A stretch of 64,000 bases of DNA from a virus. Every line of letters begins with the position of its first letter. Within the stretch, counting starts at the first letter, position 1. Below are positions 1-50,640 of this stretch, piece after piece. The stretch spans positions 1-64,000 of the IMG/VR virus record IMGVR_UViG_3300030012_004221; one strand, 5' to 3'. The translations under genes and the position numbers were made by a program. The notes below the pieces were generated by a model, which saw only the letters and a program-made list of their open reading frames with translations, made no database searches and was not told the origin of the DNA.

Positions 1-1226
1 AATGCATCACCTACAAAGTGTACATTTGGATATTTTGTTAATGAAAGATCTGAATAATTAACTAATGGTTCAGGAGCTAGATATTTAACTTCAGGTACAT
101 ATATTCCCCAATCATCTTTTAATGTTGGAAATATTTTTTTCATATCATTAATAAAATCTTCTATATACTTATAGTAACCTTGAAATGCATCTTTAACTAC
201 ATCTAAATTATCAATTTTAGTAGCTGATACATCTACACCTTCTGATGTTATAGATGGTTCTCTACTAGGACTGTAGAATAAACCTGTACTATTTTCTTGT
301 ACTTTACCTACTAGCTCTCTTGCCCATTTAAATGGTTTTTCAATACCTCTAACTTCCATTAATATGCCAAAATTAGTCATATCATTTCTAAATGACTCAT
401 CTTTTTTAGCATGTCCATTATAACTGTGATCACCATAGGTTTCTTCAACTGCTACATATGCAGCATTATTATTTGTACAAAATGATCTTAAACTAACATT
501 ATCTAATTTTCTATACAATTTAAAATCATAAGCAACATCAATTAACTTTTGGAAGTGTTTTTGTGGCGCTTCAAATCTAACACCTACTTGAGCTGGTTTT
601 TCTTCAGTTGGTAAATCATATTTTTGCATTATATTTGAAGTAAAGTCAATTCCTGATTTACCTACACCAAAAATAAGTTTATCGTAATTAAAAGTAAGAT
701 CTCTAGAATCACCTAAACCACAAATAACTTCTCTATTATCAAAATCAATATCACTAACTTTAGTTTCCCAAATAAATTCAACACCTTTACTAACTAAATA
801 ATCATACCAACTTTTACCTATTTCATGTAAGTAATCAGTACCAATGTGCCAACATGGAAATAATCTTAAACCAAAATACGGTTTAATAAATTCGGGTTCT
901 TCCTCTGGATTTGATAATATAATTTGTTCTGGATGTGGGTGAAATCTACTAAAATTATCTACTACTTGCTTCATAAGCTCCATAGCTTTATCTTCACCTA
1001 CATACTTAGATAATTGCCCACCAATTTGGGTTGAGTAAGTTAATTTACCATCACTCCAACCACCTGCACCTAAGTAACCTGTCATTACCTCTTCATAGGG
1101 TCTTAAATATGGATCTTGACCCATATCTATAATTGTTATTTTACCATCAAAATTATTATCAACTAATTTAGTAGCAGCATTTACACCTGCTACACCTGCT
1201 CCTACAATTACTACATTTTTATTCAT
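1..1226 (-). CDS. FAD-dependent dehydrogenase, COG2509-like (C-terminus cut by window edge)
   Basis: About 408 codons are present, starting at ATG 1224-1226. The protein opens with MNKNVVIVGAGVAGVNAA, a Rossmann dinucleotide-binding GxGxxG motif. It has WSDGKLTYSTQ near residue 60, a VGVRFEAPQ segment, SFCTNNNAAYVAVEETYGDH and, at the cut end, HFVGDA, the usual C-terminal FAD-binding motif. The order SDGKL, VGVR-E, cysteine-containing C-x-x-x, FVGDA matches the uncharacterised FAD-dependent dehydrogenases of COG2509. The family reaction is not well defined, so the substrate is unknown. The gene follows a terminator-embedded promoter and probably forms its own transcript. A metabolic flavoenzyme is unusual next to capsid genes. 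I am sure of the flavoprotein fold and moderately sure of the family. Confidence 0.8.
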   Translation of the reverse strand, partial: MNKNVVIVGAGVAGVNAATKLVDNNFDGKITIIDMGQDPYLRPYEEVMTGYLGAGGWSDGKLTYSTQIGGQLSKYVGEDKAMELMKQVVDNFSRFHPHPEQIILSNPEEEPEFIKPYFGLRLFPCWHIGTDYLHEIGKSWYDYLVSKGVEFIWETKVSDIDFDNREVICGLGDSRDLTFNYDKLIFGVGKSGIDFTSNIMQKYDLPTEEKPAQVGVRFEAPQKHFQKLIDVAYDFKLYRKLDNVSLRSFCTNNNAAYVAVEETYGDHSYNGHAKKDESFRNDMTNFGILMEVRGIEKPFKWARELVGKVQENSTGLFYSPSREPSITSEGVDVSATKIDNLDVVKDAFQGYYKYIEDFINDMKKIFPTLKDDWGIYVPEVKYLAPEPLVNYSDLSLTKYPNVHFVGDA

Positions 1227-3732: not shown

Positions 3733-4815
3733 TTAAAAATCATAAGACCATCTAGGAAGACCGTCTTTAATATATATTTTAACACCTTTACCTAATTCAT
3801 CTAATAGCTTATCAGTAGATACTCTTTTATAATTACCTGATATGTCATTTAAAAAGAATACTTCTTGAAATCCTTCAGACTTAATATAGAGTCTAACTAT
3901 TTCTTTAGAAAAATCTTGTTCAAGTTGAAGCCAATTAAAATCATTACCACTTACATAAGATTTTATATTTAATTTAGAAAAATCTAAACCTGGGTAATTT
4001 TTCTTTAAAGCACTATCTAATACCACTAAATAATCATTTATAGCTTCTGGTTGCTCTTCTTTAATTTGATCAAAAATAATACCAATTCTATTCATTGGTC
4101 TTTTTCTTACTACTCCTTTTAATGATATATCATTTGCAAGTTTTGGATTAATTCCTTTTTCAATATCAGTATAAACAGTTTCCATTGTGTTAACTCCAAA
4201 CTCTGCTTTTTGTCCCATTGGGACTGCTCCTTTATTTTTAACTTCAATTTCTTTTCCACCTGCTTCAATATCACCTCCTGATACTGCATCTTGAACGTCT
4301 TTAAGCATTATAGATAATAGTATTTCTCCTTTACCTGTAGAAACTCTACCAATTGAAGGTTCTAATTTTAGAATAAATTCTACTAATTCATCAGATAAGA
4401 AATTAAACTTTTCTTTTAAGTTACCTCCATCACCTAAATAAGAATAATCTTTCATATTATCAAGGTATTCAGCATATTTAGGTACGTCTCCAGTAGATAC
4501 CATTTTATTGTAAATACTATCAGCTACTTTAGCAGGACCCTTACCTTTTGATTGAATATAATCAATAATCCCTTGTTTAAACTTAATTCCAGATACTGAA
4601 GATAATATACGAGCTAATTGTTCTGGTGTGAATTCTTCATCTTGAAGAACTTTAATAATTTCTTCTTTAGAAACTACCCCATCTGCTTCATCTTCTTTAA
4701 TAAGATTATTAACCATTTCTAATAACATAGTTTTTTCCTCAGGATTATTTACATCAGGGTATCCTTTAGGAAATTTATAAGAAATTTTATTTAAATATTT
4801 AGTTATATTATCCAT
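3733..4815 (-). CDS. Nuclease-fold-like cargo protein
   Basis: A 360-residue protein whose N-terminus, MDNITKYLNKISYKF, resembles the short amphipathic starts of its neighbours but lacks a clear L-x-E site. Around residues 155-205 it has GKGEILLSIMLKDV, then GGDIEAGGKEIEVKNKGAV. A Glu in a helix followed by D-x(7)-E-x-K is the catalytic layout of PD-(D/E)XK nucleases. That fold assignment is an inference; no further motif confirms activity. It begins at a TAATG overlap with the preceding gene, so the two are probably co-translated. Confidence 0.7.
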   Translation of the reverse strand: MDNITKYLNKISYKFPKGYPDVNNPEEKTMLLEMVNNLIKEDEADGVVSKEEIIKVLQDEEFTPEQLARILSSVSGIKFKQGIIDYIQSKGKGPAKVADSIYNKMVSTGDVPKYAEYLDNMKDYSYLGDGGNLKEKFNFLSDELVEFILKLEPSIGRVSTGKGEILLSIMLKDVQDAVSGGDIEAGGKEIEVKNKGAVPMGQKAEFGVNTMETVYTDIEKGINPKLANDISLKGVVRKRPMNRIGIIFDQIKEEQPEAINDYLVVLDSALKKNYPGLDFSKLNIKSYVSGNDFNWLQLEQDFSKEIVRLYIKSEGFQEVFFLNDISGNYKRVSTDKLLDELGKGVKIYIKDGLPRWSYDF

Positions 4816-5276
4816 TATATATCTATCTCAACATTATCATCAACTTCAACGTCAACATCTTCTGCACCACCACCAGCTTCACCACCTGCATCTGTTTCAG
4901 CAGCTTCACCTTCTGGTGCTCCATATCGTAATATACGAGCAATAGCTAAAGTAGCTCTTTCTTCTTCAGGTAAATTTAATAAATAATATTTTTTACCTTC
5001 AACCTGAGCTATCCAGCTTGTTTTTGAGTATATTAAATAAAAATCTTGATCGTTTTTTAGATTAATTCTAAATGTAGTTGGTTTTGGAGCTACCCAATCT
5101 ATAGATGCTAAGAAATTATCAAACTCATGTGTTAATAAGTCAATAATTACTGCTTTTAATTCTGGGAATTTTGTTAGCTCGTCGTATTCAACTGCAGCTG
5201 CCTCTGCCTGTTTAATATTGCCCACAACAGTTGGGACAAGCAATCTTATCTTTTCCCTTAGTTCTGCTGCTGTCAT
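4815..5276 (-). CDS. Conserved-type phage protein with acidic tail
   Basis: 153 residues. The first 115 form a mixed alpha/beta domain with two aromatic-rich strands (FYLIYSKTSWIAQV, KYYLLNLPEEERATLAIARI). The last 30 residues are a Gly/Ala/Asp/Glu tail ending DVDVEVDDNVEIDI, the same Val-Asp-Val type of acidic stretch found in the 204-aa protein at 6984-7598. I do not recognise the family. It is translationally linked to the nuclease-like gene below it. A role in capsid cargo or scaffolding is inferred from position. Confidence 0.65.
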   Translation of the reverse strand: MTAAELREKIRLLVPTVVGNIKQAEAAAVEYDELTKFPELKAVIIDLLTHEFDNFLASIDWVAPKPTTFRINLKNDQDFYLIYSKTSWIAQVEGKKYYLLNLPEEERATLAIARILRYGAPEGEAAETDAGGEAGGGAEDVDVEVDDNVEIDI

Positions 5277-5278
5277 AA

Positions 5279-6781
5279 TTATTTATCTTCTTTTTTCTCG
5301 TCTTCTCTTACTAAACCTTCACCGTAAGCTGCTCTAATAGCACCACATACTTTTTTAGCTCCTTCAACACCATATTTACCTTCATTATCATCTAAACATT
5401 GGTCAAATGGATAAGAACCTTCAGCTATTTTGGCTTTAGCTTCTCTAATAGTTTCTTTTAGTTCTTTTCTATCATCCATAGAAAAACCTTTTTTACCTAT
5501 GCCAAATTTTTTCTTAAAGTATCCTTTATTTACTTCATCTAATGCAAATCCTATTTCAGCATCTTTATCTGGTCTATCAACTGTTACATTATCAATATTA
5601 TCGGAATCAATTTCATCACCACCTGATCCTATAAATCTTTCTGGATCACCAGGCATTTGTTCTGCAACAGCCATTTCTTGCTTAAATTTAGCAAACAATT
5701 CTCTTGCTTTATCTCCTGATATTTTAGCTTCTTTTGCTGCTTTTTCCAACGCATCTAAAGCCATATCAATTTTACCACCTTTTTTAAGTAGGTCTTCTTT
5801 TAATTTTTTAGCTATTTTTTCAGCTATTTTTTTATTTTGCATATTAGTTTTTTTATTTTCTTCAAACGCACCTGACGCTGCTCTTCTATGAACTGCTGAA
5901 TCACCCATTTCATTTGGTGTGTATAACGATGGAGTAAACCCTGTATCATCGTCTGTGCCTAATTGGTTAATATCTTCGTCTACTACATCTACAGCTACGT
6001 CAACTACAGCATCTATTTTTGGTTCGTTAAGCTCAAATTCTAAGTACTGTTTTGCCCCAACTAATGCTTCCTTAGCTTTAAATACTTTACTTTGCCACCA
6101 TGATGGAAAATCTACTTCACCTGCACCATCAAATTGATCAACCATTTTATATAAATCCATAGCTGCCTTCCCAACTCTATATAAGTCAGCTTTTATCATA
6201 TGTGGTTCATTATCTTGATGTCCTAAATCTAGATCTTCATTTACTGCTGGTTCTGCTGCTTCTTCATCATCTGATAAATCTTTTAAAAATTGAAGTACTC
6301 TACCAAATTTTTGATTTTTAGAGTAATCTTTTTGTTCTTTATCTTGAATAGCATTATAAATTCCTAACATTGCTTTTGCAAACCCAGGAGCATCTTTAAT
6401 CTCATTAGCTAATTTTTGAATAATTGATGTTGGTAATTCTACTTCATTAACTTCTAAATCTTTTTTAATAGTTACTTTATGCATTTTACCACTACCTTCA
6501 GGAAATTCAAATTCTTTTTTTCCTGCATCTCTAGCTTTGTCTGCAGCTACAATAAAAGCATTTGCTTCTTTCATTGGTTTTCTTAAAGCATCTTTAATTA
6601 ACTCAGTTAATTTAGGATCCTTTTTGCCTTTAGCAATATTAGTAGCACGACCGTACATTACAGCTTCAGCGTCTTTACCATACTTTTTAACAAGATCTCT
6701 CTTGTTTTTTTTCATATTCATAATAACATCTTCTCTTTTATCGAGTTCTGCTTTTGTAAGTTTACGTTCGTTTAATGCCAT
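5279..6781 (-). CDS. Lysine/glutamate-rich 500-aa probable internal capsid or core protein
   Basis: A highly charged, helix-forming protein starting MALNERKLTKAELDKREDV. It has alternating Lys-rich and Asp/Glu-rich segments, a central coiled-coil-like part (KKIAEKIAKKLKEDLLKKGG, about 315-360) and a C-terminal mini-domain with two cysteines, YPFDQCLDDNEGKYGVEGAK then KVCGAIRAAYGEGL. That terminal domain looks like one I know only from uncharacterised phage proteins. The composition suggests a prohead-core or DNA-associated protein rather than an enzyme. The function is not established. Confidence 0.7.
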   Translation of the reverse strand: MALNERKLTKAELDKREDVIMNMKKNKRDLVKKYGKDAEAVMYGRATNIAKGKKDPKLTELIKDALRKPMKEANAFIVAADKARDAGKKEFEFPEGSGKMHKVTIKKDLEVNEVELPTSIIQKLANEIKDAPGFAKAMLGIYNAIQDKEQKDYSKNQKFGRVLQFLKDLSDDEEAAEPAVNEDLDLGHQDNEPHMIKADLYRVGKAAMDLYKMVDQFDGAGEVDFPSWWQSKVFKAKEALVGAKQYLEFELNEPKIDAVVDVAVDVVDEDINQLGTDDDTGFTPSLYTPNEMGDSAVHRRAASGAFEENKKTNMQNKKIAEKIAKKLKEDLLKKGGKIDMALDALEKAAKEAKISGDKARELFAKFKQEMAVAEQMPGDPERFIGSGGDEIDSDNIDNVTVDRPDKDAEIGFALDEVNKGYFKKKFGIGKKGFSMDDRKELKETIREAKAKIAEGSYPFDQCLDDNEGKYGVEGAKKVCGAIRAAYGEGLVREDEKKEDK

Positions 6782-6782
6782 T

Positions 6783-6956
6783 TTATTTTGCTTTATCTTC
6801 TGCTACAGAAGCTTTTCTATATTCAGTTACAAGTTTTTTAATTTCACCTAATGCTTTTCTTGCACGACCATGAGCTGCTTTTGACTTACCAGCATGCTCA
6901 ACTTTAAATGTTTCAAACAAAACATCTAATCTTTCGAATAGTTCTTGAGTATTCAT
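6783..6956 (-). CDS. Histone Hc1-like small basic protein
   Basis: A 57-residue ORF, ATG 6954-6956 to TAA 6783-6785. The N-terminal half is a helix (MNTQELFERLDVLFETFKVE). It is followed by HAGKSKAAHGRARKALGEIK and KLVTEYRKAS. The K-x-x-AA-x-x-RARKAL-E-I-KKL core is the signature of the histone H1/Hc1-like proteins of Chlamydiae and Bacteroidota. Those proteins compact DNA, so this one may bind phage DNA in the capsid or the host nucleoid. It lies between two highly charged genes with standard spacing. The family call is from memory of the motif. Confidence 0.65.
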   Translation of the reverse strand: MNTQELFERLDVLFETFKVEHAGKSKAAHGRARKALGEIKKLVTEYRKASVAEDKAK

Positions 6957-6983
6957 CCTATAAATTTTATTATTAATAACTTA

Positions 6984-7598
6984 TTAAAGTAATCCAGCTA
7001 ACTTTTTGAATCTTTTAACTTCTTCAGTTAATTCTTCTTTAACGTCTTTTTTATCTTCTTCATCTATGTCTTTAGGTCCTCTCATAGCTTCATCTACATC
7101 CTTTTTGTCTTCTTCATCTATGTCCTTAGGTCCTCTCATAGCTTCATCTACGTCTTTTTTGTCTTCTTCATCAAAGACTTTTTTACCTCTCATTGCTTCA
7201 TCTACATCTTTATCCATTTCTTCAGAAACTTCACCTGATTTAACAACATGAGTTCTAGTGTAATAAGTGATTGTATTTCCAATTTGATCTAGTAGTTTTT
7301 CATCTCCCATTCCTTCAGCTTTTTCTTGAGCTTTAGTTAAAAGACCTAATACTGCAGATACATCAGATGATTCACCTGGTAATTCTGATTTTACTTCAAT
7401 GTCAGATTCTTTAGATACATCATCAACATCAACGTCTTTTTCAACGTCAACATCTACGTTTTCTGTGTCTTTAACATCCACATTGTCTTCTACTTCAACG
7501 TCTTCTTGTTCTTTTACGTCGTCGTATTTTTCATTAAGTTCATCAGCTTCAGCTAAAAACGCCGATTTGATAATCTCTTTTAATTCCGATTTTTTCAT
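6984..7598 (-). CDS. Acidic repeat protein with capsid-targeting-like N-terminus
   Basis: 204 residues beginning MKKSELKEIIKSAFLAEADE, an amphipathic helix ending in L-A-E|A, a good match to the gp21-type cleavage consensus. Residues about 25-75 are Val/Asp/Glu repeats (VDVKDTENVDVDVEKDVDVD). Near 125-180 three 18-residue repeats of the form KKDVDEAMRGPKDIDEEDKK occur, encoded by 54-bp tandem repeats. The extreme acidity resembles prohead-core or DNA-mimic proteins. A late-type element lies 28 nt upstream. The function is not known. Confidence 0.75.
   Translation of the reverse strand: MKKSELKEIIKSAFLAEADELNEKYDDVKEQEDVEVEDNVDVKDTENVDVDVEKDVDVDDVSKESDIEVKSELPGESSDVSAVLGLLTKAQEKAEGMGDEKLLDQIGNTITYYTRTHVVKSGEVSEEMDKDVDEAMRGKKVFDEEDKKDVDEAMRGPKDIDEEDKKDVDEAMRGPKDIDEEDKKDVKEELTEEVKRFKKLAGLL
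7041..7222 (-). repeat. 54-bp tandem repeats inside the acidic protein gene
   Basis: Three in-frame 54-bp units start at about 7061, 7115 and 7169 and encode an 18-aa repeat with core DEAMRG; a partial unit precedes them at 7041-7060. The first two units are nearly identical and the third is diverged. Confidence 0.85.
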
Positions 7599-7626
7599 TT
7601 TTATGTTTTATTTTAGTTGGGTTTAT

Positions 7627-7636
7627 TTATAAATAT
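7627..7636 (-). promoter_or_regulatory. Late-type element ATATTTATAA
   Basis: Minus strand ATATATTTATAAATAA in the 86-bp gap before the acidic repeat gene, 28 nt from its ATG. Confidence 0.5.
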
Positions 7637-7684
7637 ATTAAAATATTTTCTAATTGCGTTAGTATTGTTAATTTTTTGCGGTTT

Positions 7685-7963
7685 TTAAGATTTTTTCTTA
7701 AATTTAGCTTTTTTAGTATTTTTTACAAATTGTTTACCTTTTTTACTGCCACGTACTTTTTTAGCTACAGTAGCTTTTCTTTGAGCTTTAGTTAAGGATT
7801 GTGCTTTTTTCTTAGGTAAACATCTAGTAGTTGGTTTACCTTTTTTCATAGTACCACATGGACCTGTGATATTACCTGATGTGTTAATACGCACCCAGTT
7901 TTCTTTTTTAAACCAGTCACGTAGTGATTCTTTAATTATTTCGTCTAGTCTTTCTCTAGTCAT
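7685..7963 (-). CDS. DUF5872-like basic protein
   Basis: 92 residues. The N-terminal helix MTRERLDEIIKESLRDWFKK leads into WVRINTSGNITGPCGTMKKG, RCLPKKKAQSLTKAQRKATV and a Lys-rich tail ending AKFKKKS. The order W-V-[RD]-I, GPCG, RCLPK-KA-SLT matches the DUF5872-type domain of marine T4-like phages, whose function is unknown. The two cysteines may form a metal site or disulfide. Strong positive charge suits DNA or capsid-core contact. Confidence 0.75.
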   Translation of the reverse strand: MTRERLDEIIKESLRDWFKKENWVRINTSGNITGPCGTMKKGKPTTRCLPKKKAQSLTKAQRKATVAKKVRGSKKGKQFVKNTKKAKFKKKS

Positions 7964-7964
7964 T

Positions 7965-8480
7965 TTATCTAGCGTTCAAATAATTACTAATTCTTCTAAT
8001 AGCATAATCATCCCCATAATTACCGGCCATCCAATTATTATGAATGTAATAAATTACATCTTCAAATCTATCTTTATTTAATCTAGGTCCTGCCTTTATT
8101 AAATCTTCCATTTCTTGATCATAACCATCATCTAACTCATCAAATGCTTCATTTAATTTATCTTGCTCATCATAATAATCTTGTGGGTGAAATTTCATTT
8201 CAACTACTTTACCATCTGGTTTAATGCTTACACCATCAACTAATATTTCAACTGGGTAAGGTTTATCTGGTTTATCATACCAGTAAGCCATTGTATATCC
8301 TCCGTTATCTAGTAATTCAACTAGTAAACCTCTTTTATAATCAAAATCTCCTGCTTGTAGTACTACTTCTTTACCCCTAGGTAAAATTAATTCAGCTTCA
8401 GGTACTACATTATCATCTTTATCTTCTTGTTCAGTAAGATATTGTTTGTTAAAATATTTTTTTAAATCGAAATCGTTCAT
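7965..8480 (-). CDS. Cargo protein with capsid-targeting-like N-terminus (FDLKKYF type)
   Basis: 171 residues starting MNDFDLKKYFNKQYLTEQED, with an L-T-E|Q site at residue 17. The middle (about 25-90) is a small beta domain (LILPRGKEVVLQAGDFDYKR, LLDNGGYTMAYWYDKPDKP). The end is helical, with a tryptophan- and glycine-containing segment (NNWMAGNYGDDYAIRRI). No family recognised. Start, spacing and N-terminal helix are shared with the next two genes upstream, suggesting targeting to a common place, by my inference the prohead. Confidence 0.7.
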   Translation of the reverse strand: MNDFDLKKYFNKQYLTEQEDKDDNVVPEAELILPRGKEVVLQAGDFDYKRGLLVELLDNGGYTMAYWYDKPDKPYPVEILVDGVSIKPDGKVVEMKFHPQDYYDEQDKLNEAFDELDDGYDQEMEDLIKAGPRLNKDRFEDVIYYIHNNWMAGNYGDDYAIRRISNYLNAR

Positions 8481-8482
8481 TT

Positions 8483-8806
8483 TTATAAATTATATTTTAT
8501 TACTGCGATTTTCTTATTTGCTATATCAATTATTTCTGGGTCTGTATCATCATCACCAAAACCTCCTCCTTTAAAATCCATAGGTAATTTAGAAGCTATT
8601 TTAAATGAAAATCCAGTTAATTCATCTACATCAGTAGCAGATGCATCATCCATATCGTCTAGTTTCCAATTAGCTAATTTAGTACCTAATTGTTGTTCTA
8701 CTTCAGGTTGATAAGCTTTTAATACTTTAAGAAGTAATTTTGATGATCTATCTTCTTTTAATAGCTTGTTTTCAGCTAAATATTTTCTTAAATCAAAGTT
8801 TTCCAT
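8483..8806 (-). CDS. Small cargo protein with capsid-targeting-like N-terminus (FDLRKYL type)
   Basis: 107 residues starting MENFDLRKYLAENKLLKED, with an L-A-E|N site at residue 12. The remaining 90 residues are a compact alpha/beta domain (LLLKVLKAYQPEVEQQLGTK, then an Asp-rich loop and IANKKIAVIKYNL). Function unknown. Two or three nucleotides separate it from the next gene, so translation is probably coupled. Confidence 0.7.
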   Translation of the reverse strand: MENFDLRKYLAENKLLKEDRSSKLLLKVLKAYQPEVEQQLGTKLANWKLDDMDDASATDVDELTGFSFKIASKLPMDFKGGGFGDDDTDPEIIDIANKKIAVIKYNL

Positions 8807-8824
8807 TTTTTTTAGTTATTTTAT

Positions 8825-10732
8825 TTATTTTTTCTTTTTACTTCTTCCACTTATTTGACCTTTACAAACCTTAACTGCTCTACCACTTAAATAAGCTGAT
8901 GATTTTTCCCCTGCTGCTTTACGTCTTTTAATATATGCTTTTCCTTTAGGACATAATTCTTTTTCGTTTAGTTGTAATCCTAATTTAATAGTTTCAGCTA
9001 TTTCTTTTGCTAATTCTTCTTTAAGTAATTTATCAAGTGTTTTAGCTTGTTTATCATGTGCCTTAACTGACTTTTTAAGTTGGCCAGATATTTTTTTAAC
9101 TTTATTTTTTTCTGATTTTGATAATTCTGCTTCGTTCATGTCGTAATCATTAATTAATTTATTAACTCTATATAATTTATCTTCTAATTTATTTAGTTCA
9201 GCTCCATATCTATCAGCTATTTCTCCTCCTTCTGGTTCAGCTTCTTGCTCCATATCCCTGTATAATTGAGAAATTCTATCTTCAATATCTCTTTTTTCAT
9301 CTCTTAAATCTAATACATATTCAAAGTCAATACGTTCATTTACTACATCAATTTTTTTACCATCTAAATCTTTTAAAGTAATTGAAGTATATATTTTACC
9401 TAATCTATCAGGATCTTTTTGTGCTAATTCTAAAGCTAAATCTGGGTTTGATAAAATCATTCTTTCATATTTTGACTTACCTTTTAATGCTTCTCTCCAT
9501 TCAGGAGTATTACCTGCTTTAATATCTTTAAGAGTTTCCTCATATTTTTTATCTTCAAAACCATATTTACCTGAGTATATATCTAGTAGTTGTTTATCAT
9601 CACTCATAGTATTAGCAACTGTTCTATAAATAGACCCTGCACTTGTAGGATCTAATTTATCTATAGCTCCCATTACTTGTTTATTAAAAAGACCATACTT
9701 ACCTTTTGCAACATTACCTATAGCACTTGCTACAGCTTTTCCAGCTTTGCCTATTGGTTCTAATAAACTAGATAATTTTACTTCTAATAAAGCCATACTT
9801 AATTCAGATTTTGCATCCATGTCTATAAAATCATCTGACACTGCAAATAATTGTACTTTGCCATTTTCTAAATCTACTATTTCAATGTCTTCTAAATCAA
9901 ATTTATTTTTTAATCTATCACCTATAACCTTCATATTCATCATGGCTGCCGCAGCACCTAATCTTCTCATTTGTCCTGACATTGTTTCTTTACCCAATGC
10001 TGTTAGTGCTCCACTTCCAGTAGGGTAATCAATAAATGCATATAAAAAATTAGGATTATTTTTATCTTTTTTAAATCTAGGTTTTGATATTTTAGGTCTT
10101 TGATTTTCATCAACTTTACCTTTCATAAAGATTCTATCTCTATCAATTTCGTTTGGGTCTTCTTCTTTACTTCTCATCCACTTAGCTAATATTTCTCTAG
10201 CTTCTCTTTTATCTAGACCAAATTCTGCTGATATATAAGGACCAGCTCCAAACATATTAGTTACACCCGAATCTCTTAGACCATCTAAAAATGTAAATAT
10301 TGTTTTTTCAACACCTTCTTTTATGTTAGCTTTATCTATAGAGAAAAATGAAATTGAAGCCGGATAATCTCTATCACCCCCAAATTCCATTTCATAATCA
10401 CTAGTATCATAAAATTCAAAATTATATTTTTTAGTTTGATTGTTTGCTTTTTCAAAAGCATTTTTTACTTTTTGAATATTTTCAGCTGACCAATCTTGTA
10501 AACCAAATGTTTTTAAATAATATCCTTCTCTACCATTATAAGAACCACCTCTAAACATATCATCAAATCTAAGATCGCCTAACTCTTTTCTTAAAGCAGC
10601 TAATAATATTTGGGCGTCATCTTCTTTATGTAAAAGGCGAGGTTTGGGGGTTGCAGAAGGTAATTCGAAATCTTTATCAATTTCATTTAGATATTGTTTC
10701 TTAAAGTACCCAGTTATATTAAAGTTATCCAT
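8825..10732 (-). CDS. Large cargo protein with capsid-targeting-like N-terminus and basic CPKGK domain
   Basis: 635 residues beginning [20 protein letters not shown], with L-N-E|I at residue 17. It is highly charged, with a coiled-coil-like region around 475-560. The C-terminus is a basic domain, [20 protein letters not shown] then VKVCKG and RSKKKK, which has the same two-cysteine plus polybasic layout as other proteins in this block. The central 400 residues are not recognisable. A late-type element sits 10 nt before the start. Capsid-internal location is an inference from the targeting-like peptide. Confidence 0.7.
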
Positions 10733-10742
10733 TAGATTTTAT

Positions 10743-10752
10743 TTATAAATAT
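10743..10752 (-). promoter_or_regulatory. Late-type element ATATTTATAA
   Basis: Minus strand ATATATTTATAAATAAAA, only 10 nt before the ATG of the 635-aa gene, implying a very short leader if used. Confidence 0.5.
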
Positions 10753-10763
10753 ATAAAAATATG

Positions 10764-11339
10764 TTACTTTTTAAGGCTTTCTAAATGTTCAATAGTTTTA
10801 CTTAATCCCTCATATACTTTCTTTACATTAGGACCACCTACCCACTTTTCAACATCACCTTGCTCTGTTATAAATGAATTATTTGATATAGTTAATTGTG
10901 ATTCTATATATTTTTTTATATCATCTATAAATCCATCTATGTCAGAATTTATGATTCTAGCTTCATAAGCTTCATATAACCCTGCAGTACGTAATTCGTG
11001 TTCAAATTTAATAACACAATCCATACATTTTTTATGAATATTCCAATATGGTTTATCAAGATCATTACGCATTTTAGATCCACAACAAGGACAAAATATA
11101 GGCATTATATGTGCTTTTTTAGCAGCATCTAATTTTGTAATATTTTGTTTTAAGCCATTTTTTATAGTCCATTTACGACCATCTGCTTCCCAAATATCAC
11201 CTTCTTTATATTGTTTTTCTGATTTAGAGTAACCAACACTTTGACCTACTTTATCACCATGTTTACCTTGAATAAGGTTACGCATTCTATTAACATCTCT
11301 TTCAGTAAATTGTTTTTTTAACCCTTGTACTTTGCTCAT
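10764..11339 (-). CDS. Zinc-finger-containing conserved T4-like phage protein
   Basis: 191 residues. The N-terminus MSKVQGLKKQFTERDVNRMR, followed by GKHGDKVGQSVGYSKSEKQY and a GDIWEADGRKWTIKNGLKQN segment, is a pattern I know from uncharacterised T4-like marine phage proteins. A treble-clef-type zinc site is visible: FCPCCGSKM with a second pair at KKCMDCVIKFEHEL. The C-terminal third is helical. Function unknown, possibly nucleic-acid or protein binding through the zinc knuckle. Confidence 0.75.
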   Translation of the reverse strand: MSKVQGLKKQFTERDVNRMRNLIQGKHGDKVGQSVGYSKSEKQYKEGDIWEADGRKWTIKNGLKQNITKLDAAKKAHIMPIFCPCCGSKMRNDLDKPYWNIHKKCMDCVIKFEHELRTAGLYEAYEARIINSDIDGFIDDIKKYIESQLTISNNSFITEQGDVEKWVGGPNVKKVYEGLSKTIEHLESLKK

Positions 11340-11342
11340 AAA

Positions 11343-11549
11343 CTATATTTTTTGTAACTCTGTAATTATTGTCTGTATTTCTTCAGATGTTAATTTACCA
11401 TCAACTTTCCAAACTTTAATTTGATTTACTAATTCACTTATTAATATTTTTTGTTGTGGTGGGGGTGGTGTAAATGATTTAGTATTATTACTTCTTACTC
11501 GTGGAGAGCCACCTTTATAACCACCTCCTAAAGTTTTTATTTCACTCAT
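11343..11549 (-). CDS. Small proline-rich linker protein
   Basis: 68 residues, starting at an ATGA-type overlap with the large fusion gene upstream. A Gly-rich start (LGGGYKGGSPRVRS) and PPPPQQ linker precede a C-terminal helix pair (ILISELVNQIKVWKVDGKLT). The last 35 residues look like an EF-hand-like or SHOCT-like short helical hairpin, but I cannot name it. Confidence 0.6.
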   Translation of the reverse strand: MSEIKTLGGGYKGGSPRVRSNNTKSFTPPPPQQKILISELVNQIKVWKVDGKLTSEEIQTIITELQKI

Positions 11550-14185
11550 AATCCTAGTTGTTTTAGTTGTTCAATTGTATCAGCAGCTGATGTGTGTAGT
11601 ATTCCTATACCACCTTGTGATCTCCATTGTTCAATATTTGATTCTCTATCGTCAATCAATATATGATTTGGTGCTGCATAATTTTGTTTTTTAGCTGCTT
11701 GAGCTAATGTTAATTTAATTCCAGGTAAATTATTTCTAACCCATAGTCTTTTACCTAATCTAGATGTTTGAGATCTAGAAGGGGATGATAATAATTCTAC
11801 ATCATAATTTTTAATGTAATCCCAATATCTTTTACCATCAGACATCCAAGGCATGCCTACCCAAAATGCTACACCTTCACCATCAGCTAATTCCCAAAAT
11901 TTTTCTTTACCAAATCTTTTTTCATATTCTGAAGGTGAAATACCATCAGAGTATTTTTCAAACCTACCATTAAAGTCAGTTATGACCCCATCCATATCCG
12001 AAAATATTTTATATTCTTTTTTATTCATAGCGTTTTCTACTTCTGTAGCTATTTCTCTTGCAAATTGGTTTAACCCAAAAGGATCCTTACCCAATTTATC
12101 ATTAAAACCAAATTTATGCTTGTATACTTCATTTAATGAGTCTGTCCAATTTCTAAATGTCATTGTACCTCTTAAATTAGCTTCTTGTTCTAATTTATTA
12201 AGACGTTCATCCTCTAATGTATTAGTAGTTTGTACATTATCCAACCTATTTTCTAAATACTGTATGTGATGTATCATTTCATGAGCGTATGAACGCGCTA
12301 TATCTTTAGGATGTCTACCTTCAGTATATAATGCTATAGTTTGTGTATTTGGGTCATAATACGCTGTTTTACCAAGAAATTGACTAGCATTATCAACATC
12401 ACCATCAATCATTTGTAACATAGGTAATGGTTGAATATTCATACCTTTATCTAACATATGTTGAGTAAATCTAGATAATATATCTATAAGATCTATTTTT
12501 TTAGAATATGTAGCATTTTCATTTATATTTTTTTTAGATTTTCTAACTAAACCCCATTTTGGTAATTTTTTACCTTTATACTCACCATCCATTTCATAGT
12601 TACGAACTGAGTATTTTTTACCATTTTCATCTTCTAATGATAATTTATATCTATTAACTCCTTCTCTACTATTTTTTATTACTTTAAGTTGTAATGATTT
12701 TTCTAATTTTTTACCTCCTAATGGAAAACCTTTAGGTGCCCTTAAAACATCACCAGGTAGTATTTGACCGTCATAATTTGTTAAGTCAATTGCTATTTCA
12801 TTGACATTAGTTGTTGTTTTTAATGTCTTAGATAATTGTAATGCCTTATAATATTTTTGATTTTTATCTCCTAATTGTACACCCTTTTTATCTTTATCTT
12901 TATCCATTTTTCTTAAACGAGCTAACTCTTTATTAATTTTAGATAATGGAATTTTTTTACCTTTAGGTATATTTAATCTTTTTCTAACAGTACCTTGTTT
13001 TAACTTACCTGCTTTTTTTCCTTTAGCAGCCATTTTTTCGTATGTGTCTCCTTCACCTATATCTCTATAATTGTTAGATGGTGGGAACGAATTCATTTTC
13101 TTTTTAGCTTGTTCTTTTGTTTTATAAGGACCAAATTCTTGTCTTATACCTGGAGAGAATGGATTATCTTGTATAAAGTAATACTTATCTCCTCGTTTTT
13201 CAATAGCTCTATAACGACTTCTACCTCCAAATCCTTTTCTTTCTTTTACTTTATCGTATCCAGATCCAAATGGAGCAGCTTTACCATCGTGGTTAGGCGC
13301 TACATTTTCATTTTTTTGTTTTTGTTTTTTTAAACGTTGAGTTTTCTTTTTAGATGCTTCTTTTTTATCTTTAATATATTCAAATCCAGCTTTTAATTTT
13401 TTCTTTTTAGCTGGGTCCTTAGTTCTAGATAAGGCTGCTCTTACTCTTTGATGAATTAAATTTATAATTTGGGATTGTCTAGCATGTGATTTAGCTTTAA
13501 ATGATGCTTTACCTAAAGTATCTACTATATCTTGTCTAGTACTAAACTTAACACCTACAGTATCTTTAGGATCTTCATCTGTGTATAGTCTTCTACTTGA
13601 TCCTTTAGGTTTTTTACCTGTTCCTTTTTTGGGATCATTTTCATCTAACCAAGCTTCTAATAAAGCAATTTCATCTAATCTTTGTACTAGTTTATATATT
13701 TCAGATTTTTCTTTTACTTCATCAGGTATAAATTTAATAAAATCCTCTTCTTTATCTAATGCTTTTCTAGCATTAGTTCCACTCATATCAGGATCATAAG
13801 TAGGGATTACTTTAACAATAATATTAGGATATTTATCTAAATTACTAGTTCTAGCAGATACATCATCTAAATCATCTTGTCTTCCTTCTCTATAACCAAT
13901 AACAAAATAAATAATATCCTGAGGGTTATCTTTAGCTAAACGTAAAATATCTCCAATTGGTGATTTTGATGGTTGTATATTAACTTTATTAGCTAAATAT
14001 TTTTTATATATGTCCCAAATTTGAATAGCTTCAAATTGGTCTATACCATCACGTACTTTACCTCCTACATAAATGTAAAATTCATCTATTTCAGGAAATT
14101 CCTGAAGAGCATTTTTTACAATTTCAAAATGACCTGCTGTTGGTGGTTTAAAACCCCCTCCATATGCTGCTAATACTTTACCCAT
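11546..14185 (-). CDS. Multidomain fusion: cytidylyltransferase-like, basic region, HExxH peptidase, HAD phosphatase
   Basis: The ORF is open from 14239, but ATG 14183-14185, overlapping the previous stop as ATGGGTAA, gives 879 residues starting MGKVLAAYGGGFKPPTAGHF. Residues 1-175 carry GGGFKPPTAGH and SGTNARKAL, as in NMN/cytidylyltransferases. Residues 200-300 hold SHARQSQIINLIHQRVRAAL and a Lys-rich stretch, followed by a highly basic linker to about 465. Near 633 is AHEMIHHIQYLENR, a zinc-peptidase HExxH helix with EQEAN later. From about 728, IFSDMDGVITDF and LIDDRESNIEQW are HAD phosphatase motifs. It may be a polyprotein cut during assembly. Confidence 0.8.
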   Translation of the reverse strand: MGKVLAAYGGGFKPPTAGHFEIVKNALQEFPEIDEFYIYVGGKVRDGIDQFEAIQIWDIYKKYLANKVNIQPSKSPIGDILRLAKDNPQDIIYFVIGYREGRQDDLDDVSARTSNLDKYPNIIVKVIPTYDPDMSGTNARKALDKEEDFIKFIPDEVKEKSEIYKLVQRLDEIALLEAWLDENDPKKGTGKKPKGSSRRLYTDEDPKDTVGVKFSTRQDIVDTLGKASFKAKSHARQSQIINLIHQRVRAALSRTKDPAKKKKLKAGFEYIKDKKEASKKKTQRLKKQKQKNENVAPNHDGKAAPFGSGYDKVKERKGFGGRSRYRAIEKRGDKYYFIQDNPFSPGIRQEFGPYKTKEQAKKKMNSFPPSNNYRDIGEGDTYEKMAAKGKKAGKLKQGTVRKRLNIPKGKKIPLSKINKELARLRKMDKDKDKKGVQLGDKNQKYYKALQLSKTLKTTTNVNEIAIDLTNYDGQILPGDVLRAPKGFPLGGKKLEKSLQLKVIKNSREGVNRYKLSLEDENGKKYSVRNYEMDGEYKGKKLPKWGLVRKSKKNINENATYSKKIDLIDILSRFTQHMLDKGMNIQPLPMLQMIDGDVDNASQFLGKTAYYDPNTQTIALYTEGRHPKDIARSYAHEMIHHIQYLENRLDNVQTTNTLEDERLNKLEQEANLRGTMTFRNWTDSLNEVYKHKFGFNDKLGKDPFGLNQFAREIATEVENAMNKKEYKIFSDMDGVITDFNGRFEKYSDGISPSEYEKRFGKEKFWELADGEGVAFWVGMPWMSDGKRYWDYIKNYDVELLSSPSRSQTSRLGKRLWVRNNLPGIKLTLAQAAKKQNYAAPNHILIDDRESNIEQWRSQGGIGILHTSAADTIEQLKQLGL

Positions 14186-14975
14186 TAATAAATGATTTAA
14201 TTTTTGCTTGAGCTTCTTCCCTTGAAACTGAATTATCAATTATATCTTTAACACCTTCATCCGATAATAATGCCTTAATATCAGCATTTAATTGTGCTTT
14301 TGCTTTATCTGATCTTGCCTGTGCTTTTTCGTCTTTTGGTTTTGTGTTTTGTGGTTTAAAAGGATCTAAATATTTTTTTACTATATCTTCTAAATTATCT
14401 AATTTTTCATCTTGTAATAAATTTGATACAGATACAAAATTATTACCAAATAAATCTTTGTATGGTTGATAATTTTTCGTAACTGAGTTCCATGTTCTCA
14501 TTACTATAGCAGGTGCTAAACTTCTATCACCTGATTTATCAAATCTGTCTTGATTTTGTTTTAATGATCTTTCTAAATCAGTATAAACATAAAGCATAAA
14601 TACTTCATAACCAGCATCTTCTAATTCTCTTTTTAATTTTTCTGTTTGTCCATATGATGCGGCAGTTCCATCTAATATAAATGATTCTCTATTAGCTATT
14701 GCTTTAGGTAAGTCTTCATCTTTTAATTTTGCAGTAGCTTGTCGCATTAATTTAGCTGCTTGGCTTCTTTCTTCAGGGGTAGCATTTTTTAAATCTAAAC
14801 TTACACCTGCTTTTTTTAGTAAAGGAACAAAATCAAAATCTATATTATATGTAGTTAAACTAGATAAGTCTAACCCTTTAAGGATATATCCTTTTCCAGC
14901 TCCAGGTGCACCTGCTAATATAATTGCTTTAGGTGATGATGTTGCTTCTTTTAGTAATTGCATTAATTTTATCAT
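14178..14975 (-). CDS. Zeta-toxin-like P-loop kinase with capsid-targeting-like N-terminus
   Basis: 265 residues beginning MIKLMQLLKEATSSPKAIIL. The LLKE|A at residue 10 fits the gp21-type consensus exactly. Walker A is GAPGAGKGYI (about 22-31), an NIDFDFVPLLKK segment follows, and FILDGTAASYG holds the Walker-B-like strand. Later LERSLKQNQDRF resembles the kinase lid arginines. The best description is a zeta-toxin/polynucleotide-kinase-like enzyme phosphorylating a small molecule, sugar nucleotide or nucleic-acid end. The C-terminal 60 residues are charged helices. The next gene overlaps its stop. Confidence 0.75.
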   Translation of the reverse strand: MIKLMQLLKEATSSPKAIILAGAPGAGKGYILKGLDLSSLTTYNIDFDFVPLLKKAGVSLDLKNATPEERSQAAKLMRQATAKLKDEDLPKAIANRESFILDGTAASYGQTEKLKRELEDAGYEVFMLYVYTDLERSLKQNQDRFDKSGDRSLAPAIVMRTWNSVTKNYQPYKDLFGNNFVSVSNLLQDEKLDNLEDIVKKYLDPFKPQNTKPKDEKAQARSDKAKAQLNADIKALLSDEGVKDIIDNSVSREEAQAKIKSFING

Positions 14976-15505
14976 ATTCTTGGTTTTCCAAACATTGTTT
15001 TTCTATACTTTTTACCACCTAATATTCTATCATATGAACCATCATCATACATTTTTATTTCTTTACCTTTAAGTGCTTTACGAATTGTTTCTTCATCAGT
15101 AACTTGTATTACATTTGCATTACGTAAAATACCTTCAATAGCACCTGATGCCTCAATATAATTTCCAGGTTCATCTAATTTATCAATTGTACGACCTATA
15201 GCTCCTCTTTTACCTGGGCTAGTTCCATCATGTCCTATACCAACATGTTTAGTACCACCTGCTCTTTGTTTTGTTACTGTTACAGCATCTAAACCTGAGT
15301 CATCATCTAAATCAATAATTTCATAGTCTGAACCTGCTAAATCACTAACCGATTTATAATTAGGATGACCTCCAATAGGTCCATAAGCATTTTGGATTAA
15401 ATCTAGAATATCTACTTCTAAATCTTTTATATCATTGCCCGATAGCGGTACCCATTTGTTTTTAGGTATACTCACTTCTTTTAACAGCTGTACTAATGAT
15501 ATCAT
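14972..15505 (-). CDS. Cargo protein with capsid-targeting-like N-terminus (MISLVQLLKE)
   Basis: 177 residues starting MISLVQLLKEVSIPKNKWVP, sharing the Q-L-L-K-E pattern with the kinase below it. The remainder is alpha/beta, with DYEIIDLDDDSGLDAVTVTK, a glycine/histidine-rich GGTKHVGIGHDG loop and a basic end (GGKKYRKTMFGKPRI). I do not recognise a catalytic family. It has a late-type element 15 nt upstream, and its stop overlaps the kinase start (ATGA), so both are probably produced together. Confidence 0.7.
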   Translation of the reverse strand: MISLVQLLKEVSIPKNKWVPLSGNDIKDLEVDILDLIQNAYGPIGGHPNYKSVSDLAGSDYEIIDLDDDSGLDAVTVTKQRAGGTKHVGIGHDGTSPGKRGAIGRTIDKLDEPGNYIEASGAIEGILRNANVIQVTDEETIRKALKGKEIKMYDDGSYDRILGGKKYRKTMFGKPRI

Positions 15506-32523: not shown

Positions 32524-32930
32524 TATTGTAGTAGTATGTTTATTTCATCACTTATATCAAAATTTTCTATTTGATAAGTTAATGTAAAATTAATTTCATT
32601 ATTATCTGGTTGATTATCAAATTGAATCTCTAAGATTATAACATTAGGGAAAAATAGTGATATATCATCCTGAATTCTTGCCTTCAAATCATCAGTAGTT
32701 CTATCTAAAATTTGTTCAAATAATAAAGCTCTTAAATCAGCCCCAAAATTTGGATTAAAAACTCTTTCACCTCTATTAGTTAATAAATAATTAATTAAAT
32801 TAGATTTTGTTTGTTCTCTAGTTGTAAATGTAGGGTTAAACACAGCAGGTCCATTAAAAGGAAGAGAAAACCCTACGGCTTTTCTTCCGATTGAATCTAT
32901 TGGATATTTACTTGCTATTATTCTTGCCAT
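32523..32930 (-). CDS. 25: Baseplate wedge protein gp25 (GpW/gp25 family)
   Basis: 135 residues, the usual family length. NPTFTTREQTKSNLINYLLT, NRGERVFNPNFGADLRALLF and a helix-strand end (ILEIQFDNQPDNNEINFTLT) are the diagnostic gp25 blocks, including the R-G-E-R turn. gp25 sits in the wedge and helps start sheath polymerisation. It starts and ends with one-nucleotide overlaps with its neighbours. Confidence 0.94.
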   Translation of the reverse strand: MARIIASKYPIDSIGRKAVGFSLPFNGPAVFNPTFTTREQTKSNLINYLLTNRGERVFNPNFGADLRALLFEQILDRTTDDLKARIQDDISLFFPNVIILEIQFDNQPDNNEINFTLTYQIENFDISDEINILLQ

Positions 32931-33274
32931 TATTTTTTCATTAATGATGCTATTTGTGACATATCAACTTCTCCTGCTGGTAGTGCTCCATTAGCTGAAT
33001 CAAAACCAGGTTGAGGTGTAAAACTTTGAGGTACATTATTAGTTGTAAAAGCAGCTGCAGTATCACCTAATATATTTTGATAAGCTGCTCTTTTTTCGGA
33101 AGCTGACATAACTGGTTGTTGTGGAGCTTGATGTTCTACAACTGGAGTTGATGTTATCTGTTGAGGGGCAACTTTAGGAGTTTTTACAGCTTCCAATAAA
33201 ATATCTTTTAATTCTTCTTGAATTGCTTCTCTAACTGCTTCTTTTATTATCTTTTTTAACTCTGATGACTTCAT
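32930..33274 (-). CDS. Small helical protein with capsid-targeting-like N-terminus, between baseplate genes
   Basis: 114 residues starting MKSSELKKIIKEAVREAIQE, closely similar to the start of the acidic repeat protein at 6984-7598 (MKKSELKEIIKSA). ILLE|A occurs near residue 28, a gp21-type site. The middle is Pro/Gln/Val-rich and probably unfolded; the end is a short helix (MSQIASLMKK). A late-type element lies 6 nt upstream. Its place in the baseplate operon is unexpected for a capsid cargo and leaves the function open. Confidence 0.7.
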   Translation of the reverse strand: MKSSELKKIIKEAVREAIQEELKDILLEAVKTPKVAPQQITSTPVVEHQAPQQPVMSASEKRAAYQNILGDTAAAFTTNNVPQSFTPQPGFDSANGALPAGEVDMSQIASLMKK

Positions 33275-49496: not shown

Positions 49497-49652
49497 TTAG
49501 TGATCTAAAAATACAGCATACACAGGTACTTTTTTATTTTTAGGAAAGTGTACTGTAGTTATTAACTCTTTTTTCTTGATTACAGGCTGTTCAGTTTTAT
49601 CAACTGGCCAATATTTAGGATTTTTACTATTTAATTTTCTTTTCTTAGGCAT
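49497..49652 (-). CDS. 51-aa basic mini-protein
   Basis: ATG 49650-49652 overlaps the preceding stop as TAATG; TAA at 49497-49499. Sequence opens MPKKRKLNSKNPKYWPVDKT and ends PVYAVFLDH. A basic N-terminus and a short strand-rich end. Function unknown. Confidence 0.6.
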   Translation of the reverse strand: MPKKRKLNSKNPKYWPVDKTEQPVIKKKELITTVHFPKNKKVPVYAVFLDH

Positions 49653-50221
49653 TATTGATAATAGTCATCATCATCATATTCATCATATTCATCATAATCA
49701 TCCTCATAATCTTCTTCATCTTCAAATTCAGATTCGTAATTAAACATATCTTCATTTGACTCAGTATAATTACCATCTTTACCCTCAATGTAATCTAATA
49801 CTTTTTCTAATGCAAAATTAAGCAATCTTTCATACCCATCTTCTGGAGCATCTATTGCCTTGTTAAATGTGCTTGTTAATGTAGATTGTATTTCTAATGG
49901 AATTTCCCTTGAATTAGTTAAAAATGAATGAGCAGGACCTGCTGTTTCAGCTCCATATCCTTTATAAAAGAAATCACCATCATTATAATAACGATAAATA
50001 ATTCTATTAATTGCTCTTAACATTTCACCTTCAATAAAATCAGAATTACCTGATCCAGGTACTAATTTATCATATAATACTTCATTTCTTTTTTCTAACT
50101 TTCCACCTACAAATTCTTTCATTAAATTTGGACCTGCAGGTTTAGATCTAGGCTTACCATCTGGAGTATAACCACAAGTACCTTCGTTCAAAAATTTTCT
50201 AAATGTGTTTAATTCTTTCAT
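49652..50221 (-). CDS. Protein with capsid-targeting-like N-terminus and acidic tail
   Basis: 189 residues starting MKELNTFRKFLNEGTCGYTP; FLNE|G at residue 13 fits a gp21-type site and resembles the T4 internal-protein leader MKTYQEFIAE. The middle is a helical domain (GEMLRAINRIIYRYYNDGDF), and the end is an Asp/Glu/Tyr-only tail (EDEEDYEDDYDEYDEYDDDD). It lies far from the main cargo block, beside its sister gene. Capsid packaging is inferred. Confidence 0.72.
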   Translation of the reverse strand: MKELNTFRKFLNEGTCGYTPDGKPRSKPAGPNLMKEFVGGKLEKRNEVLYDKLVPGSGNSDFIEGEMLRAINRIIYRYYNDGDFFYKGYGAETAGPAHSFLTNSREIPLEIQSTLTSTFNKAIDAPEDGYERLLNFALEKVLDYIEGKDGNYTESNEDMFNYESEFEDEEDYEDDYDEYDEYDDDDYYQ

Positions 50222-50640
50222 TTTAAATCGGATAATATATCTTCTACTACGTTTATAAAATCATTCATATCAATATTACCGTCTAATAATTGATCAACGT
50301 GAATCATCATTTCTTTCTTTAATGAATCTTTTTTAGATCTACCCATTTCCATTTCAAATTCCTCATCATCAATGTACATTTGTTCATCAACATCTTCTTT
50401 ATCTTCTTTATACATTGTATTTATGTAAAAGTCATCAGCTACTTTTTGTAATTGATCTCCTGAGTATTCCATAGTTTCACCTGTCTCTTTATTCTTAACA
50501 ACATAAGCTTTTAAATCAGATGCAAACATATCTCTAACTGACATTACTTTCATTTTTGTATCATCACCTTTAAGGACGACAGTATCACCCCTCATTATTT
50601 CTTCATTAAGGAATCTTCTAAAATTTTGTAATTCTTTCAT
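50218..50640 (-). CDS. Protein with capsid-targeting-like N-terminus (MKELQNFRRFLNE)
   Basis: 140 residues, MKELQNFRRFLNEEIMRGDT, with the first 13 residues nearly identical to the neighbouring 189-aa protein, so the leader has been duplicated. After it comes a small barrel-like part (DTVVLKGDDTKMKVMSVRDM) and an acidic helical end. Function unknown. Confidence 0.72.
   Translation of the reverse strand: MKELQNFRRFLNEEIMRGDTVVLKGDDTKMKVMSVRDMFASDLKAYVVKNKETGETMEYSGDQLQKVADDFYINTMYKEDKEDVDEQMYIDDEEFEMEMGRSKKDSLKKEMMIHVDQLLDGNIDMNDFINVVEDILSDLK

Follow-up and report, generated by a model that had tools for sequence, protein, structure and literature searches.

A block of 14 genes at positions 3,733 to 15,505 of an uncultured T4-like phage sequence appears to encode mainly cargo of the phage head. 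We consider it about 80% probable that the N-terminal leaders of these proteins recruit them into the prohead, that a protease frees the bodies behind the leaders, and that the bodies exit with the DNA. Judged from sequence comparison, a head-targeting role is supported by the portability of the leaders, their swapping on homologous bodies, the location of the genes near head genes, and the link of one leader class to the tail of the scaffold protein. The leader would be a short amphipathic helix that binds the core, or a scaffold-binding surface, during prohead assembly, and the shell would close after the leader-bearing protein has been recruited. A gp21-like protease would then cut after [LIV]-x-E at or near the end of the leader; the freed body would stay in the head, be present in the virion and be injected with the DNA. 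In the host the bodies may act in takeover or counter-defence, as the T4 internal proteins do, all three of which are reported to block restriction enzymes (PMC12373910). In uncultured T4-like phages the internal-protein logic of T4 would thus extend to unrelated bodies of at least 97 families, and the leader could serve as a sequence handle for virion-delivered effectors missed by annotation.

Phage Record and Probable Host

The window (the whole stretch of DNA analysed, 64,000 nt) comprises bases 1–64,000 of the 158,183-base IMG/VR record IMGVR_UViG_3300030012_004221, which is linear and incomplete. Its head, tail, replication, and 7-deazaguanine genes resemble those of Flavobacterium phage vB_FspM_immuto_2-6A (160 kb; hereafter immuto). 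The block belongs to a T4-like, Immutovirus-related phage from an environmental metagenome, and because of this resemblance the host is probably a member of the Bacteroidota. Immuto itself is grown on Flavobacterium sp. LMO8 as laboratory host. The portal gene is interrupted by the record end (157424–158008 corresponds to the C-terminal portion of immuto gp197), and no terminase was found among the immuto hits when the query set was compared with the whole immuto genome; the missing part of the portal gene, together with the terminase, therefore probably falls into the gap from 158183 to 1. The immuto stretch matching the block is gp176–195, and its end lies directly upstream of the terminase gp196. 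The gene at 1–1226 (minus strand), also cut by the record end, starts with MNKNVVIVGAGVAGVNAATKLV, which resembles the start of FAD/NAD-binding proteins. Homologues of the immuto 7-deazaguanine genes for FolE, QueE, QueD, QueC, and DpdA are found at record positions 88325, 91746, 92562, 93534, and 94958, which suggests that the phage DNA may be modified.

Leaders of the Block Genes

An earlier note, made from the sequence alone, had described T4-type leaders on unrelated proteins of the block and named six starts. Its reading of these proteins as putative packaged cargo is largely supported. All six are present exactly as written, all on the minus strand (Table 1), and 7685–7963, with homologues in the fetched loci, provides a seventh fitting start. 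The description holds for about 8 of the 14 genes, whereas about 6 of 14 are without a processable leader; genes 5279–6781, 6783–6956, 10764–11339, 11343–11549, and 11546–14185 carry no convincing one (start codons were set by rule). The L-x-E sites that the note had marked for cleavage are there, but some are ambiguous: YLAE/N in 8483–8806 is one of two candidates, as follows from a second [LIVMF]xE in the class A family consensus, the other being LLKE/D at residue 18. In 7965–8480 and 8825–10732, K stands for E at the first site and the second site is retained (LTE and LNE, respectively). Relatives of 3733–4815 start MNLIDKIILE/W.

Table 1. Leaders and related terminal elements in the window; a slash marks a candidate cut.
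Element	Residues	Position	Strand	Gene	Remarks
Class A leader MENFDLRKYLAENKLLKE	1–18	8753..8806	−	8483–8806	candidate cuts after E12 and E18
Class A leader MNDFDLKKYFNKQYLTE	1–17	8430..8480	−	7965–8480	cut of the earlier note, MNDFDLKKYFNKQYLTE/Q
Class A-like leader	1–17	10682..10732	−	8825–10732	
Class C leader MIKLMQLLKE/A		14946..14975	−	14178–14975	exact T4 register (hydrophobic 4, 7, 8 and E10)
Class C leader MISLVQLLKE/V		15476..15505	−	14972–15505	exact T4 register
Class B leader MKKSELKEIIKSAFLAE/A	1–17	7548..7598	−	6984–7598	acidic protein
Scaffold-like C-terminal tail EVKRFKKLAGLL	193–204	6987..7022	−	6984–7598	
Class B leader MTRERLDEIIKE/S	1–12	7928..7963	−	7685–7963	small basic protein; T4 spacing
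Leader-like start MDNITKYLNK		4786..4815	−	3733–4815	T4 spacing, K replaces E10
T4-like leader MKELNTFRKFLNE		50183..50221	−	49652–50221	outside block
T4-like leader MKELQNFRRFLNE		50602..50640	−	50218–50640	outside block

Homologues of some block proteins carry such leaders as well. In the fetched loci 8483–8806 has 11 matches, of which 10 belong to class A, and the best matches span the leader region. The body of 7965–8480 is common to class A proteins of loci L079 and L228, and in L086 and L070 it forms part of longer, fused proteins. Class C leaders occur on 13 of 16 homologues of 14178–14975 in the fetched loci, among which 14972–15505 has no homologue. The acidic protein 6984–7598 contains tandem repeats of DVDEAMRGPKDIDEEDKK type.

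Motif Statistics and T4 Control

A bare [LI]xE with its E at residues 6–20 is present in 9 of 14 block genes versus 39 of 176 others (Fisher p = 0.0016). As a criterion this count is significant yet weak, and a rule based on T4 spacing was used instead. Because targeting by IPIII depends mainly on residues 4 and 7 and processing on residues 8 and 10 (PMC9026906), the rule takes the form hydrophobic-x-x-[FYLIM]-[LI]-x-E within 17 residues. It is matched by 9 of 190 genes, where shuffles predict 2.5. Four of the 14 block genes match (7685, 8483, 14178, and 14972; shuffle mean 0.15), and none of 3,000 shuffles reached four. The matches outside the block are two genes at 49.6–50.6 kb, the protease, 155499 at the gp67/68 position, and 32930 among the baseplate genes. 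The T4 register is exact in 14178 and 14972 and shifted in 8483, 7685, 49652, and 50218. Since the baseplate-region gene 32930–33274 has a class B-type start, class B may be less specific; it is the weakest of the classes. With T4 as positive control, 13 of 260 ORFs match the rule (3.4 expected), including ipII, ipIII, gp24, and alt; the start of T4 ipI, MKTFKEFTSTTTPVSTITE, is longer and in this respect resembles the long class A leaders. The scan of N-termini that the earlier note had called for is thus positive, and the T4 control passed.

A Portable Class A Module in IMG/VR

The codon-level pattern FDL[KR]K[FY]LxEN gave at least 120 matches in IMG/VR, and its scrambled version gave zero. 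Among the matches listed, 126 of 142 have an ATG no more than seven codons upstream and are therefore N-terminal. Only 4 of 28 matches in cellular genomes (257 Gb) are N-terminal, and two of these four lie on one contig with full long leaders, which is probably phage DNA. In IMG/VR the class A leader (FDLKKFLxEN) precedes unrelated bodies of at least 97 families, as defined by single-linkage BLAST clustering (E < 1e-5, 30% coverage), a count that would drop with more sensitive comparison. The same leader is thus found on unrelated proteins, as expected of a capsid-targeting sequence, and 29 of the families keep the exact T4 register. With one representative per family the consensus is F-[DN]-L-[KR]-K-[YF]-L-x-E-N (E 94%, N 91%), after which the second [LIVMF]xE mostly ends at residues 14–16 or 20–22. 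The first candidate site is lacking in 6 families, the second in 10, and both in none; these counts are not different from independence, and compensation between the two sites was rejected as proof. Compared with 50,697 phage records, the two consensus leaders matched only immuto isolates. The literature searched contained nothing useful on immuto virions or on leaders in marine T4-like phages. Relatives of immuto gp194 (L026, L027, L040, L055, L057, L062, and L083) carry the class A module at both ends, and the C-terminal copy reads LQEGFDLRKFLAENRK in most of them.

Protease, Capsid, and Head-Gene Neighbourhood

The gp21-like protease that the earlier note had proposed to look for outside the window is encoded in the same record, beside the Gp23 capsid gene. 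This Peptidase_S77 gene (PF03420, E = 1.2e-30) at 153891–154328 has the gp22-position gene (152350–153597) on one side and gp67/68-position genes on the other, with the Gp23 capsid gene (PF07068) adjoining. All 12 leader-bearing records of at least 150 kb contain an S77 protease, a T4-like core gene whose co-occurrence is expected in any T4-like phage. Near the position of the T4 cut (E65/A66), 83 aligned capsid proteins mostly read QAKQ[LI]VxE followed by A, S, Q, or N. Because the capsid proteins keep [LIV]xE near this position, the cut rule in these phages is likely [LIV]-x-E. A head-cluster gene is present in 55 of 120 class A loci, among the matches listed, versus about 11% expected at random.

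Exchange of Leaders Between Phages

Homologous bodies are found behind different leader classes. L021_6318 (class A) is 66% identical to immuto gp176 (class B), and the alignment starts past the leaders. Classes A and C are exchanged between L079 and immuto gp189 (55% identity) and between L047 and L024 (39%), classes C and D between L151 and L259 (59%), and classes D and A between L241 and immuto gp179 (36%). Proteins of the window take part in such swaps: the body of 49652–50221 shares 56% identity with a class A protein of L082, that of 50218–50640 matches an L082 protein bearing a class B-like leader, and other phages carry a core of 6984–7598 behind leaders of classes A and D. From this exchange on homologous bodies we strongly infer that the leader classes are functionally equivalent.

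The Scaffold Tail as a Leader Class

Class D leaders resemble the end of the scaffold protein itself. The scaffold (gp22-position protein) of the block's phage ends with DEMVARFKKLAGII, its tail being ARFKKLAGII, and the motif forms the C-terminal end of 96 related scaffold sequences. It also stands at the N-terminus of 35 non-scaffold proteins (typically MKKQILSEEFRRMQKLAGIITE) and at the C-terminus of 9, including 6984–7598; the reversed-order control of the pattern gave zero matches. The class D tag and the scaffold C-terminus are thus identical in kind, where the identity of the octamer is partly due to selection (class D loci were chosen by RMQKLAGI) and the terminal position and flanking residues are free of that effect. 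In 27 of 38 N-terminal tags an [LIVMF]xE follows with its E exactly three residues past LAG[ILVM]. Since class D equals the scaffold tail and swaps with other leaders, cargo may enter proheads through scaffold mimicry. We lean slightly towards the view that the C-terminal tail of the phage's own scaffold is a portable cargo tag, N- or C-terminal and exchangeable with T4-type leaders, which would be natural modular protein loading of a very large, mostly uncharacterised cargo set. The scaffold-tail class suggests what the capsid-targeting sequence recognises, a question directly testable in immuto, the only cultured relative found.

Comparison with Known Systems

With T4 capsid targeting (IPI–III, Alt, and gp21) the leaders share an N-terminal helix of 10–19 residues with 4-7-8-10 spacing, a cut after [LI]xE (here a candidate only), and unrelated bodies behind one leader. 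Unlike T4, these phages have several leader families swapping on one body, far more body families when all phages are taken together, class A leaders with two candidate cut sites, and one class of leader copying the scaffold tail; no such tail was seen in T4 gp22. In the giant phages phiKZ and SPN3US many head proteins are cut after x-x-E by a gp21-like protease and several are ejected, but their propeptides are mostly longer than 100 residues with an S/A-x-E motif, whereas the leaders here have 10–24 residues and [LIV]-x-E. In engineered P22, proteins fused to a C-terminal segment of the scaffold are packaged (PMC9962691), a use of the scaffold tail as packaging tag that parallels the one proposed here. 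The P22 tag is engineered and unrelated in sequence, whereas the tag here appears natural, short, and usually N-terminal.

Alternative Explanations

If chance or composition were responsible, look-alike starts would have been picked from the common [LI]xE, which in its bare form is indeed present at 22% of the other gene starts (39/176). This is hardly credible given the strict motif, the zero counts of the scrambled and reversed controls, the cellular-genome control, and the dozens of unrelated bodies, which refute it for classes A, C, and D and leave class B less certain. A more serious possibility, still unlikely in our view, is that the leaders let assembly proteins interact with the prohead core or the scaffold, and that the protease destroys or expels most of these proteins, as with T4 gp67 and gp68, so that they are not delivered as cargo. 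In its favour, the immuto gp199 family of small genes at the gp67/68 position also begins with class B leaders, one of the leader classes is the scaffold tail, and the acidic 6984–7598 could be a core protein; against it, some bodies appear to be enzymes (kinase and nucleotidase), and with at least 97 class A families the repertoire differs far too much from phage to phage to consist of essential core proteins.

The leaders might also address another target in infection, such as a site in the membrane, an enzyme complex of the phage, or a degradation pathway, and the binding partner cannot be named from sequence alone. Such a target is very unlikely given that class D equals the scaffold tail, that the classes swap with one another, that the spacing is that of T4, and that the genes lie near head genes.

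Cargo Bodies

Almost none of the cargo has a known domain: the 125 leader-bearing bodies gave matches to only 4 Pfam and 12 PHROG families, one body each. Most of the block proteins had no match in the Pfam/PHROG search, and the kinase and nuclease roles of bodies are annotation- or motif-level. The P-loop kinase that had been listed among the cargo-like proteins is 14178–14975, of Zeta_toxin type (PF06414, E = 5e-18). The nuclease-like call for 3733–4815 is at the level of motif residues only, with E164, D182, E191, and K193 invariant in 9 sequences of the family (a PD-(D/E)XK-like candidate); the mean pLDDT of the AlphaFold2 model is 51.5, and sequence and profile searches with the family gave no convincing Pfam match and no PDB match. 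This protein and its relatives (L012, L019, L026, L032, L034, L036, L056, L069, L081, and L214) comprise 39 proteins whose similarity is confined to roughly the first 30 residues, a leader-like start followed by KGYPD. Past the shared head, they fall into at least 11 body clusters, several of which show E..D..ExK-like residues by eye. The group possibly combines a constant head with a variable, putatively nuclease-like domain. The gene 11546–14185 joins a NadR/NMNAT-like N-terminal part, which resembles immuto gp183, to a metalloprotease-like stretch with HEMIHH and a 5'-3' deoxyribonucleotidase; its relatives have the nucleotidase as an independent protein that carries a short leader of its own.
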